Below are positions 33,887 through 39,785 of a stretch of DNA of 64,000 bases, in pieces (position 1 is the first letter of the stretch; each line of letters opens with the position of its first letter). Location of the stretch: contig BQUP01000004.1 of NCBI GenBank assembly GCA_022835595.1, positions 992,001-1,056,000 on the forward strand, written 5' to 3'. Under the pieces are notes generated by a model. The model ran no database searches. It saw only the letters and a list, made by a program, of their open reading frames with translations, and was not told where the DNA came from. The stretch comes from Cystobasidium ongulense. Taxonomy: Eukaryota; Basidiomycota; Cystobasidiomycetes; Cystobasidiales; Cystobasidiaceae. A program made the position numbers and the translations under genes.

Positions 33887-35039
33887 CTATGGGGAACAAT
33901 TAGCTGGGAAACTCAGGTGAGTTATGTCAAGCTCACAAGTATTACCCCCTTTCCCGTGTTGACATCGTAGTTTTACCTTTTGTGTTCTTGCTTCGTCTCT
34001 CTTGTCTTCTTTACCTGGCCTCTCTCGCCTGTCCACTTGAATCGGTACATGACCGTCAGTCCATTGTCGAATAAGTTTTAACCCGTCCCCTTTGACAAGT
34101 ATTAAATCTAAACGCCTAGGTTTACGCTTTTCCTTCCGTCTTGAGCCTTCGTAGAATGGGTAAAGCAAGCCAAACGTGGCGTTATCTCGCAAAGGATCTG
34201 TTCTGGGACTTGAAGGCGCTTGTGATAATGTCGCTTGAAAGGCAGGTGAAAATCCACAGTCGGTGAACGGTGCTGTGTCGTTCCATGAGAGATTCTTCTG
34301 AGTTTGAACAATGGATTTCAACTCTTCATACGAGGAATGGTTGAAGTCGGCCAGTATGACGCATGATTGCAATCCTCCAGTCGCCTCTAAAAGTTGATTG
34401 TATTGATGTAACCGTGTTTTTGCGCTTGTAGCAAGAGATTCAAAGTGGCTAGTCAGGAAGCAGATCTAAAAGGGCATTAACTCATGGTCTCCAGACTTCT
34501 AATGTTGCAATGCCTACGTTATTTCGCGCTCGAACCGTTATCAATACCTTGCCTTGTTGTCCGGCTAATGGCAACATGCGAGCACCAGAGTCGTTGTCAA
34601 TCATACTCCGCCTGATTGCTATCACGCAGCCATCTCTCTCGGACTGATTCGCAGACGAAGAGGGATTGGCAGCGTTGAAGTAATCTTGTAGGGACGTCAG
34701 ACACCAGTCTTGTCGCAACCATCTTTCTCTTCGCAATGCTTGCTCAAAAGCAGGCGAAACCTCTTGTAGCGCTATAACATCCGCTTTTGAGCGTGAAATC
34801 ACTTCAATGGCATGCCTGGTGCGATGCGATGCATGTGGTATCGACTGTGATAATGGACCCGAAAAGACGTTGTAGGTTAAGCACGTGAGGCGCTTGTTGG
34901 GATCGGCGGCACTAGATGGCTCCGAGGATGTGCTCGCTTCATTGGCAGTCGCTGTTAATGCTTGCCATTGGCGAGTGGAAGCAGAGAACCTGTATAGCGG
35001 CACCCTCCTTGATGCCTGCATGAGTGCGAAGGAAAGCAT
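33887..35039 (-). CDS. Endonuclease/exonuclease/phosphatase family protein, TDP2-like
   Basis: Mg-dependent EEP-fold enzyme. The closest animal type is tyrosyl-DNA phosphodiesterase 2, which releases topoisomerase II adducts from 5' DNA ends. Two exons (34518-35039, 33887-34465) with a 52-nt intron, 366 residues. Motifs in order: LTCLTYNVFSG (TWN-like), ADVIALQEVSP (catalytic Glu), DGCVIAIRRS, ICFLTSHFESL (HLES-like, restored by splicing), VILADFNHSSYEE (Asp-x-Asn), TDCGF, RRLDLILVKG (RxD-x-I-like), and near the end TDGHVPI in place of the usual SDH. The changed last motif leaves activity open. The gene starts about 118 bp from the divergent tRNA gene. Confidence 0.82.
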
Positions 35040-35156
35040 GCATGATTCCACGCTCTTCGGTCTAGTAAACCAAGTCCAACAAAGATCACAAAGTAGACTC
35101 GCCTGGAACAGGGCGATATACAAGACAAAAAGGGTCTGAGTGACAACCATTAAAAC

Positions 35157-35358
35157 GGCCGCGTAGCTCAGTTGGTTAGAGCGATGTAAGCACATTACCA
35201 TCAACACTTCGTCCCGTATCAGATACTTACTCCCTTCTCCCTCCTCAGGTACTAATAATGCATAGGGTTAGTAAAGAATCCCTCCTCCAACAACGCAACC
35301 TGGTCTAATAATCTCTCTTCAATTCAATCAGTCGGCAGTTCGAGCCTGTCCGTGGTCA
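35157..35358 (+). tRNA. tRNA-Ile (anticodon AAU) with two non-canonically placed introns
   Basis: Three segments, 35157-35185, 35249-35266 and 35332-35358, join to a 74-nt cloverleaf with every stem paired. The acceptor GGCCGCG pairs with CGTGGTC (two G-U) and has discriminator A. The D arm is GCTC/GAGC with loop AGTTGGTTA. The anticodon stem ATGTA/TGCAT has loop CTAATAA (anticodon AAT). The variable loop is AGGTC and the T arm GGCAG/CTGTC has loop TTCGAGC. Box A (TAGCTCAGTTGG) and box B (AGTTCGAGCC) are intact but pushed apart. Intron 1 (35186-35248, 63 nt) sits after position 28 in the anticodon stem; a GTA repeat lets it shift by up to 3. Intron 2 (35267-35331, 65 nt) lies in the variable loop, about 46/47. 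Both have GT-AG ends. Usual eukaryotic tRNA introns lie at 37/38. Confidence 0.88.
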
Positions 35359-35359
35359 A

Positions 35360-35367
35360 TTTTTTTT
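35360..35367 (+). terminator. RNA polymerase III terminator, T8
   Basis: A run of eight T begins two bases after the tRNA discriminator base, as expected for Pol III termination, and supports the 3' end of the interrupted tRNA gene. Confidence 0.9.
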
Positions 35368-35658: not shown

Positions 35659-37580
35659 ATGTTACTCTGCTCTAGAAGGTGTGGGAGAGCTCTGGCCATT
35701 GCTGCAAGACAGAACTCTGCGCTACCAGGCACGGCATGTGGCGCTTGGGCATACTTTTCCGCTTGGACTGCCACAAAGTCGCATCAGCTCAGCGAAGAGC
35801 CAACAACAGTTCCCTCGTTCGCTGTAAGCCTGATTAAGCCAAGCAATCGTCTAGAGCTAATGGTTTGCGCAGGAACTTGGTATACCTTTGGAGCTACTGG
35901 ACTCGCTCGAAAGGGCCTTTCCACATGTTGTGGTACCTACGGCCTCGCAGACCGCTCTACTCAGGGCTCTGGCGTCGAAAGATACGTCACATAGTGTCAT
36001 ATTGCGTGATGTGACGGGTAGCGGAAAGTCAGTCTCTCATTATTCAGCACTTCTGCAAGCCCGTGGTAATTATAACTGACATTTGGGTATATCTGAACAG
36101 GTCCTTAGCCTTACTCTTAGCACTTCTATCAGACAAGCACCTTTCTAGACCATTCCACAAAGCGAAAGCCCGCCGTGTAGTGAAGGCAACGAGGAAGAAG
36201 GCTTCGATAGAACAAATCCTTCTGGTGCCGCATACGGAGCTAGCTAAACAGTTCGAAGGTTGGTTGGACCGTTTACGGACACCTGTCGTGCTTGAAGATG
36301 CAGCTTCATCTAGCGAGACAACGGATGCCAGTCCAGACCTGCCAATCGACGATGTAGCTACCTCTGCAGAGCAAAGCAGTAATTTGGGCAGCTACAAGCC
36401 CGCGTTCAAGCCTTACAATGCTTTGCAGCATACTCAAGTTTTACATCGACAATCTACAAGAGCCATTGACATATCCACTCGCTTTCTCGTTACTACTCCT
36501 TCATACCTGATAGACATACTGGACTCTATCTCTACCGCGGAATTACATACTATCGCCCTTGATGAGGCCGACGAGATGTTGAAGCTTCCCAATCGCTTCC
36601 ATACCTACAAAGATGAGGTAAAATGGCAAAGGCATCCTCCCCTGCTTCTAGCTATCATGGATGAGATTCTCTCTCCAGCACAGAAAGAGCGCAAACACTC
36701 TAGTGCTATTCCGGAGAAGCGCATAGTGGCCGTATCAGCATCAGCCAATTCGGTTTTTCGCGATTATATGGTCCGAAGATCTGGCTGGTTGAAAGGACCA
36801 TCGTCTAGTGTAGACGAATTGCGGGAAGGAGATCGTCAATTTGATTGGTATGACTTCTCATCGGAACCGCTCACTGCCACTACTAGCGGAGATGAAGAGA
36901 CACAAGATATCAGTGAACTACAAAGAGTCGGACGCGCATTGATGCCACAGGCTCAGATCAACCACTATATCGCTAAGATAGACGGCCAAGGCCAAATTGT
37001 CGACGAGGACCCTACCCCTACAGAGGAGTTCGACAACGCAGCAAATACACCAGCCGATGCGGACCGTTTTCTGGTTGCTACAGCCACTCTGTTTGCTTTG
37101 AACCAAGTCGACAGAGGGCTATTGCTTATTTCATCAACTCAGTCTTTGAAAGCGACACTTGAATTCCTGCAAAGCGTGGCAGTGCCTGCTATCGGAATCT
37201 CCCAGGCCTTCGATACATCGAAAGAATCGATGGATCCAATCTTGTACGTCGCTTCAGTCGACTCAGTGCGAGGCCTCGACATACCACGGCTCGAGTGGAT
37301 ATTCTTGACCCCACAGACCAAAGCTCACGAGGACGCGAAAGACTACATGCACATCGCAGGCCGAGTTGGCCGACTGCTCGATTCACAAGGGACAAGAGGT
37401 AGCGGGAATGTAGTCAGCCTTATCGATAATGACAACCACAGGCAGCTGGGCAGATTACAGAATGTATGGCAGTTGCTGGGTATTGAAGGGCAAGCTATGC
37501 AGGCAGAGGAGCTCGCCTTTGATGAGCAGCGTGTAGAAGATAAACAACGGGCCGAAATCAGGTCTTCTGTATTAGTATAG
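35659..37580 (+). CDS. Mitochondrial DEAD-box RNA helicase, Mrh4-like
   Basis: ATP-dependent RNA helicase, probably assisting mitochondrial ribosome assembly, as Mrh4 does in yeast. Three exons (35659-35823, 35873-36027, 36101-37580), 599 residues. The N-terminus (MLLCSRRCGRALAIAARQNS) is Arg-rich without acids, like a mitochondrial presequence. A Q-motif-like region ends PTASQTALL. Walker A is DVTGSGKS, completed across the second intron. Motif Ia is LVPHTELAKQF, motif Ib FLVTTPSYLIDIL, motif II LDEADEML, motif III SAS in VAVSASANS, motif V SVDSVRGLDIPR and motif VI YMHIAGRVGR. Motif III SAS (usual SAT) and motif VI HIAGRVGR (usual HRxGRxGR) are off consensus, as in divergent mitochondrial helicases. 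Confidence 0.85.
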
Positions 37581-38002: not shown

Positions 38003-39785
38003 CTACTTCTTCTGTTGCTGGGCTTCCCAGTCAGAGACGGTAGGAAGTAGCATAGGGTTCTTTCCAGCGAAGTTCTTAGCAGGGACACCTAGTTCCAATA
38101 GTTTAGCGAAAGCCTTGCTAAAGTCATTGAAGAAAGCGTCTTCGGATTTTGCGTATTTTTCGGTATGTGGTCTGAATCCCTTATCTTGTACTAGAGCCAT
38201 GTCGGTCATCAACATCATGAGAGATTTGGTCTTGGAATCTTCGAATTGAGGAGGTCCTGACCATTTCTTCATGTTCCATTTTTCGTTCAATAAAAGGTCG
38301 TAGTATGAATTGGAGAAGGTGATTGGACTGAAGGTCCATGGGCCTGAGGAATTGAAAACAACATTTAGTACACTTTCTTTCTACTGTTTCTCAAGTCCGC
38401 CGAGAAACTCACCTTCGAAACCGGATCGATCGCCGTGGCATCTTCCGAGAGCATGAGCGCCGGAGAGAGCGACGATTTCCTGATCGTTGAAGCCCATCTT
38501 GTAGAACTAGAAAGCGAGAAGGACAAGGACGCGTGAGCATAGCTGTACTGGAAGACACTAACCTGTCTATTCAGGAAATATGTTACTTACAATCTTGCGG
38601 ATGTGATCAGCTCCCTTGTCACCGTCTGGTAGTCGGCCGTCAGGAGTCTTAGTAGAGAAATTATTAGTAACAGCTACATGAAAGGATGGTCCTGATGGCA
38701 GTAGAGAGCTTACGCAGTTCTCCTCGATACCATCCTTTCGTCCTGATCTCCATGGAATCTGAGGACCGCCCATTTCCTGAACGGCGACGACACCGGCGAG
38801 AGTCCATAGATCAGAGTATGATAGACCGGGGTATTTTTGCTTGATGGGATCTAGGAGATCACGGACGACTTTGAGACCTGCGTTGGCCTATATACAGTAC
38901 GTTGGCAGAGTCAGAGACTGATTCTTGCAAACCGAGCCATTACAAATGACAGAGCGCATCAGAATAAAGAAGCAGGCTTACACCGTGGTTTGATTCAGGG
39001 GCGAATCTCATGGTGGCACCGTTTGATCCACCAGTGCCGGTGTTCTTGTCGTAGGTGCCAGAGCAGTGCCATGCGAGACGAACGAGGGTAGGTCCGTAAG
39101 AGCCATCGTCATAGTCTGCACGCGCAAGGATGAACAGGGAAAGAAAAGCAAGGCAGTAGTCAGTATGTGACTGGGCCTCGCCTTGTATCGTTTACTGACC
39201 TTCGTTTTCGAGGATGGCGGCTGTAAACAGAGGAAGCGTGGTGCACGAAAATAGTCAGTATGCTGATCCTGAACAATCTGATCTGCTTGCATGCTGTTCC
39301 ACTGCCTGGGTGCTCTCGTCGCGTGTGTCTCTGTGTTTCGGATGCACGGGATTCGCCCCTAAGCTGGGAATCTCGTGCCGGCCGATAAGGGCTTCGGACA
39401 AAGCAGCGGCCAGAGACACGAAATTGCTTGCGTTAAAAGATGATGGAAGAAAATAAAACGCACCAACATCACGGTAGACGGCGCCGTAGTCGACATCAGG
39501 GTGGCTGCCTAGCATGCCCTCTTGGGTCGTCTTGGGGTCTTTGGCGTCTCCAAAGCCGAGCCACGAGGTGAGACCGCCCAATCCGACGAGTCCGAAAGCG
39601 ACGGGTGTCTTGCTTCGGCTGTAGGTGTTTCCTGATTGCGAGCCATTGCTGGAGTATGACCTGTATTGAGCACGAGCGGCACCGACGACGTGTCTGCTGG
39701 AGGTACTGCTGCCGGCGAGCAGGCTGCTTGAGCCGGCGCTGGCGAGCTTGCTGCTGCGCTGGGCGAAGCTTCTGGAGAGAGACAT
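38003..39785 (-). CDS. CCP1: Cytochrome c peroxidase, mitochondrial
   Basis: Heme peroxidase of the intermembrane space that reduces hydrogen peroxide with electrons from cytochrome c. The N-terminus ([20 protein letters not shown]) is a presequence, and [16 protein letters not shown] a hydrophobic sorting segment. Spliced core motifs: distal Arg-Trp-His in [21 protein letters not shown], the proximal His in [12 protein letters not shown] and the radical-site Trp in GFEGPWTFSP, as in class I peroxidases that oxidise cytochrome c. It ends [14 protein letters not shown]. Seven exons by my count; exon 2 (39200-39220, AAILENE) is 21 nt and lies between introns of about 240 and 85 nt. It shares a 0.9-kb upstream region with the divergent ABC transporter gene. 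Confidence 0.95.

Follow-up and report, generated by a model that had tools for sequence, protein, structure and literature searches.

A nuclear tRNA-Ile(AAU) gene of the basidiomycete Cystobasidium ongulense appears to carry two U2-type GT-AG spliceosomal introns, which would be removed from its Pol III transcript; judging from the sequence, the probability of this reading is about two in three. The gene is located in a 64,000-nucleotide stretch of contig BQUP01000004.1, which was analysed as a whole and is referred to below as the window. According to the textbook division, mRNA introns are removed by the spliceosome and nuclear tRNA introns by an endonuclease and a ligase, and a spliceosome-dependent tRNA would cross this division. 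If the reading is true, translation would be tied to mRNA splicing, and the gene would document the entry of spliceosomal introns into a Pol III RNA and so bear on the origin of new introns.

Architecture of the split tRNA gene

The gene is read from the plus strand and consists of three exons. Exon 1 (35157–35185, 29 nt) comprises the 5' acceptor strand and the D arm (positions 1–28) and contains an A box, recognised by its pattern, at 35164–35175; exon 2 (35249–35266, 18 nt) comprises most of the anticodon arm with the anticodon AAT and extends to position 46; exon 3 (35332–35358, 27 nt) comprises the T arm, the 3' acceptor strand and A73, and contains the B box (35338–35346). ARAGORN identifies the joined exons, 74 nt in total, as tRNA-Ile(aat), with stems of 7, 4, 5 and 5 pairs in which all 21 positions are paired (four of them as G-U), and the spliced sequence matches all 24 informative positions in a list of conserved tRNA positions, the 25th, position 73, being unconstrained. 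The first-pass annotation had claimed that excision of 35186–35248 and 35267–35331 leaves a perfect 74-nt cloverleaf, with the A box, the B box and a terminator of eight T in place, and this was confirmed to the base. The breaks that it had placed at 28/29, movable to 31/32 through a GTA repeat, and at 46/47 are borne out by the joining of the exons and by ARAGORN, as is the lack of an intron at 37/38, since the anticodon loop, CTAATAA, is unbroken.

A T8 run at 35360–35367 on the same strand starts 1 nt past the tRNA and is a likely Pol III terminator; it is the first stretch of at least four T from 35157 onward. The distance between the starts of the A and B boxes is 174 bp in the gene and 46 after splicing; long distances of this kind are tolerated by the Pol III factors, e.g., in yeast U6. 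Transcription by Pol III would be driven by the two intact boxes and stop at the T8 run. Neither intron contains TTT, a feature that read-through by Pol III might favour, but this hint was set aside as too weak, the probability of such an absence in both being about 0.1 by shuffling, which is not significant.

The gene as it stands was reported neither by Rfam at gathering score nor by ARAGORN, so similar genes elsewhere may be unannotated. Run without intron options, ARAGORN found a tRNA only when both inserts had been removed, and nothing in the unspliced locus or in the versions with a single insert removed. With the option for an anticodon-loop intron, the unspliced locus was still not found; when only insert 1 was kept, the tRNA was found with the same 63-nt insert shifted by 3 nt so that it borders on the anticodon loop, which is an equivalent placement because of the GTA repeat, and when only insert 2 was kept, the sole hit had a 64-nt intron in the wrong place and a damaged anticodon stem. 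When 228 GT...AG excisions of the locus, single and double, were tried, a cloverleaf was restored by two of them, the one described above and one that uses a GT donor at 35271, 4 nt downstream of the first donor of intron 2; the latter yields a 78-nt tRNA whose stems are unchanged and whose variable loop is longer. A scan for split tRNAs on both strands of the window, which sought the acceptor, D arm and T arm and allowed the 5' acceptor to lie up to 600 nt upstream, returned this locus and no other. The search for noncanonical introns in tRNAscan-SE 2.0 is described for archaeal tRNAs (PMC8450103).

Splicing signals of the two inserts

Cut so that the tRNA is restored, each insert has GT at its start and AG at its end: GTAAGC...CTCAG in insert 1 (35186–35248, 63 nt) and GTTAGT...ATCAG in insert 2 (35267–35331, 65 nt). 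The chance estimate for this coincidence allows for the slack of the junctions, with four equivalent placements for insert 1 and two for insert 2. Random inserts of matching lengths have GT-AG ends with a frequency of 0.015–0.017 (insert 1) and 0.008–0.009 (insert 2), the ranges being over the two strands, and the chance of GT-AG ends at both inserts in the window, with the slack counted, is about 1.3e-4. If the inserts must, in addition, contain CTNAY close to the 3' end, the frequencies fall to 0.0020–0.0024 (insert 1) and 0.0012–0.0015 (insert 2), but this motif was picked after inspection of the inserts, so the argument is carried by the GT-AG ends alone, and the other signals serve as support.

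The inserts were compared with ten introns from six protein genes of the window, for which nine regions were inspected and the junctions were placed by homology of the joined protein, partly with the use of yeast and human proteins. A codon model had been applied to find introns ab initio; it gave nothing at the first threshold and, when relaxed, a list judged to be mostly noise, and the homology-placed junctions replaced it. Three junctions were left out as unclear, namely the first kelch junction and those of the endonuclease-like and HSF-type genes; the HSF-type junction nonetheless looked like a good GTGAGT...CTAG intron. All six genes have Pfam support. For the peroxidase, which is nearest to ascorbate and cytochrome c peroxidases in structure-sequence matches, this support comes through two exons, with the profile stretches 12–47 and 49–110 abutting at a used intron, and the first frame of the gene has no Pfam match. 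The first peroxidase intron (39221–39463) is 243 nt long, against 56–94 nt in the other nine, and may conceal a small exon or be misplaced.

Compared with this set of only ten introns, the inserts resemble the local mRNA introns. Their lengths of 63 and 65 nt are inside the range of the set (56–243 nt), and their donors, scoring 7.65 (intron 1) and 6.54 (intron 2), sit in the upper range of the ten protein-gene introns, which extend from -7.2 to 8.1 in leave-one-out scoring; such scores are attained by 1.2% and 3.7%, respectively, of the GTs across the window, and the GTAAGC donor of intron 1 is identical in two of the ten. The acceptor of intron 1 scores 5.31; that of intron 2 scores 1.23 and is unremarkable, being equalled by 56% of all AGs. 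Pyrimidines make up 0.91 of the tail in intron 1 and 0.64 in intron 2, against 0.45–0.86 in the protein-gene introns. Branch-like motifs are found in both: ACTTAC (35225–35230) at 19 nt from the 3' end of intron 1, and TCTAAT (35304–35309) at 23 nt from that of intron 2. The latter conforms to CTRAY, which is present in seven of the ten protein-gene introns, and intron 1 has CTTAC instead. The G content of the tRNA introns is low (0.10 and 0.11 vs. 0.14–0.28 in the ten).

The description of these inserts as two very unusual introns away from 37/38 in a tRNA-Ile(AAU) fits all the tests that were run, but it had overlooked the GT-AG ends and the signals of mRNA type at the donor, the branch-like site and the pyrimidine tract. 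These move the likely mechanism from the tRNA endonuclease to the spliceosome. The spliceosome would recognise the donor, branch site and acceptor of each intron and release the two as lariats; the joined 74-nt RNA would then fold and be end-trimmed and modified like other tRNAs. From these signals and from the intact exons, we infer that the gene is transcribed, spliced by the spliceosome and functional.

The 8-mer CTAATAAT occurs in the anticodon loop (35252–35259) and again at the branch-like site of intron 2 (35305–35312), so the anticodon loop of the tRNA itself looks like a branch site. Conceivably, this site could serve a longer intron that starts at 35186.

The main rival is that the locus is a non-functional copy, i.e., a tRNA-Ile gene that took up two insertions (whether or not they resemble introns) and whose RNA has ceased to be matured, the needs of the cell being covered by intact tRNA-Ile(AAU) genes elsewhere. 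Insertions in the D or T arm of eukaryotic tRNA genes mostly affect one gene out of many synonymous ones, and such genes are presumed to be pseudogenes (PMC4090602); the four G-U pairs among the 21 of the stems also count in favour of this rival. Against it stand the intact exons, with every stem position paired and every informative position conserved, together with both boxes and the terminator, and the low chance of GT-AG ends at both tRNA-restoring junctions; we regard a non-functional copy as unlikely, though it deserves more weight than any other rival. A variant of it, a recent pseudogene that contains real spliceosomal introns, is compatible with these observations.

Other intron types and known precedents

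Canonical nuclear tRNA introns, which depend on the endonuclease and the ligase, share with the present case their location within a nuclear tRNA gene, but they are single and interrupt the tRNA at 37/38, whereas the gene described here is interrupted twice, at 28/29 and at 46/47, by introns with GT-AG ends, and 37/38 is free of introns. Another possibility is that the inserts are ectopic tRNA introns cut by the tRNA-splicing endonuclease at bulge-helix-bulge-like junctions, as in the red alga Cyanidioschyzon merolae or nucleomorphs, the GT-AG ends being coincidental. Unusual intron positions are known in some eukaryotic tRNA genes (PMC9602550, PMC3978253, PMC4090602), and several oddly placed introns per tRNA gene, as seen here, are described for C. 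merolae, nucleomorphs and archaea, including three in tRNA-Ile(UAU) of C. merolae (PMC9602550, PMC3978253, PMC4090602, PMC8450103). The archaeal and C. merolae introns are described as having bulge-helix-bulge motifs, but in the present locus the 4-bp central helix of such a motif was not found in any of 24 configurations over the equivalent placements, the best having three of four pairs (intron 2) and two of four (intron 1), and the ends are spliceosomal. In addition, the precursor folds no better than shuffled sequences (z 0.43; 130 of 200 shuffles fold as well). Many tRNA introns of the Guillardia theta nucleomorph are reported to have no defined bulge-helix-bulge (PMC3978253), but the Guillardia introns are 3–24 nt long (PMC4090602), against 63 and 65 nt here. 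Considering also that the GT-AG ends would have to be a coincidence of about one in several thousand, excision by the endonuclease seems very improbable, and the spliceosomal reading is preferred.

Self-splicing introns of group I or group II are likewise a poor match: the inserts, with 63 and 65 nt, are too short, and Rfam gave no match at gathering score anywhere in the window. The catalytic core of these introns normally takes up a few hundred nt. A repeated intron family (introners) was considered and set aside: a blastn search of the inserts against the window gave, besides the inserts themselves, only matches of 10–14 nt with E-values of at least 0.6. Between the two inserts, 9 nt are in common, in pyrimidine-rich stretches (blastn E-value 0.011 in that tiny comparison). 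The introns are likely to have originated by reverse splicing into the precursor or by an intron-generating insertion, which are the same origins as those proposed for U6 introns. The GTA repeat flanking intron 1 could be a target-site duplication, though at 3 nt it is too short to say.

The closest precedents for spliceosomal introns in small RNAs are provided by other fungal genes. In yeast, U3 is made by Pol II, and U6 represents the firm Pol III case, so U6 is a firmer Pol III precedent than U3. The abstract of the survey of these genes terms U3 a Pol III gene (PMC5832005). In that survey, one or more introns, nearly all of them GT-AG, occur in 138 of 310 fungal U3 genes, four genes have two, and the introns are widespread in Basidiomycota; U3 and U6 are presented there as so far the sole small structured RNAs in which introns are known to be frequent (PMC5832005). 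The introns of fungal U3 snoRNA and U6 snRNA resemble those of the present gene in being short, in having GT-AG ends and fungal branch sites, and in residing in a small structured non-coding RNA (PMC5832005), but the host in the present case is a tRNA. Both the intron type and the kind of host, a small structured RNA, would be known, and what appears to be new is a tRNA as the host RNA.

A further parallel concerns ribosomal RNA. Rogers et al. reportedly found, in 1993, mRNA-type introns in fungal nuclear 18S rDNA (cited in PMC11782384). Such introns would have in common with those of the tRNA-Ile gene a spliceosomal type and a location in a structured RNA gene that is not made by Pol II, but their host is a Pol I rRNA and not a tRNA. 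Nuclear tRNA genes with a spliceosomal intron were not reported among the matches listed in a search of open-licence literature by titles and the starts of abstracts, and the available portions of a review of tRNA introns (PMC4090602) and of the tRNAscan-SE 2.0 paper (PMC8450103) contain no word starting with 'spliceosom'.

Perhaps the spliceosome is even a regular tRNA-maturation enzyme in this fungal lineage, with GT-AG introns gained at different places in a number of nuclear tRNA genes and decoding dependent on the spliceosome; such genes would be unannotated because eukaryotic tRNA finders expect introns in the anticodon loop only. This broader suggestion is a speculative one and is rather doubtful.

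Genomic surroundings and relatives

The tRNA-Ile gene sits between two divergent frames. On the minus strand, an endonuclease/exonuclease-family frame extends from stop to stop over 34482–35267, and its coding start, placed by eye, is probably near 35025–35090; on the plus strand, a DEAD-box-like (helicase-like) frame occupies 36015–37580, with a weak match below the curated cut-off and a start, again by eye, perhaps at 35661.

The second frame, with its start placed by eye about 300 nt downstream, raises the possibility that the introns are spliceosomal but that the spliced RNA is a Pol II read-through product, e.g., the upstream leader of the helicase-like gene (about 35661 onward), from which the tRNA would be released or of which it would be a by-product. 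Splicing is normally coupled to Pol II, which would favour such an arrangement, but U6 is a case of a Pol III RNA that is spliced. The presence of introns in U6 genes (PMC5832005) and the intactness of the A box, the B box and the T8 run 1 nt past the tRNA count against the read-through explanation, which appears improbable, and more so than a non-functional copy. Splicing of a Pol III transcript is still the favoured reading.

The mevalonate diphosphate decarboxylase encoded in the window is more similar to chain 6xr5 (375.5 bits), presumably a Cryptococcus protein, than to 1fi4 (280 bits), presumably the yeast protein. The window reads as that of a eukaryote with short introns and, judging by the decarboxylase, as fungal and probably basidiomycetous. 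Exact-pattern scans of viral contigs and of bacterial and archaeal genome contigs gave one match, an uninterrupted tRNA-Met; since these collections are viral, bacterial and archaeal, the misses carry no information on fungi. The match lies in a stretch of an IMG/VR contig (L001:200-10099) that contains 12 tRNA genes in 10 kb, and its tRNA-Met shares a T-arm motif with the tRNA-Ile described here.
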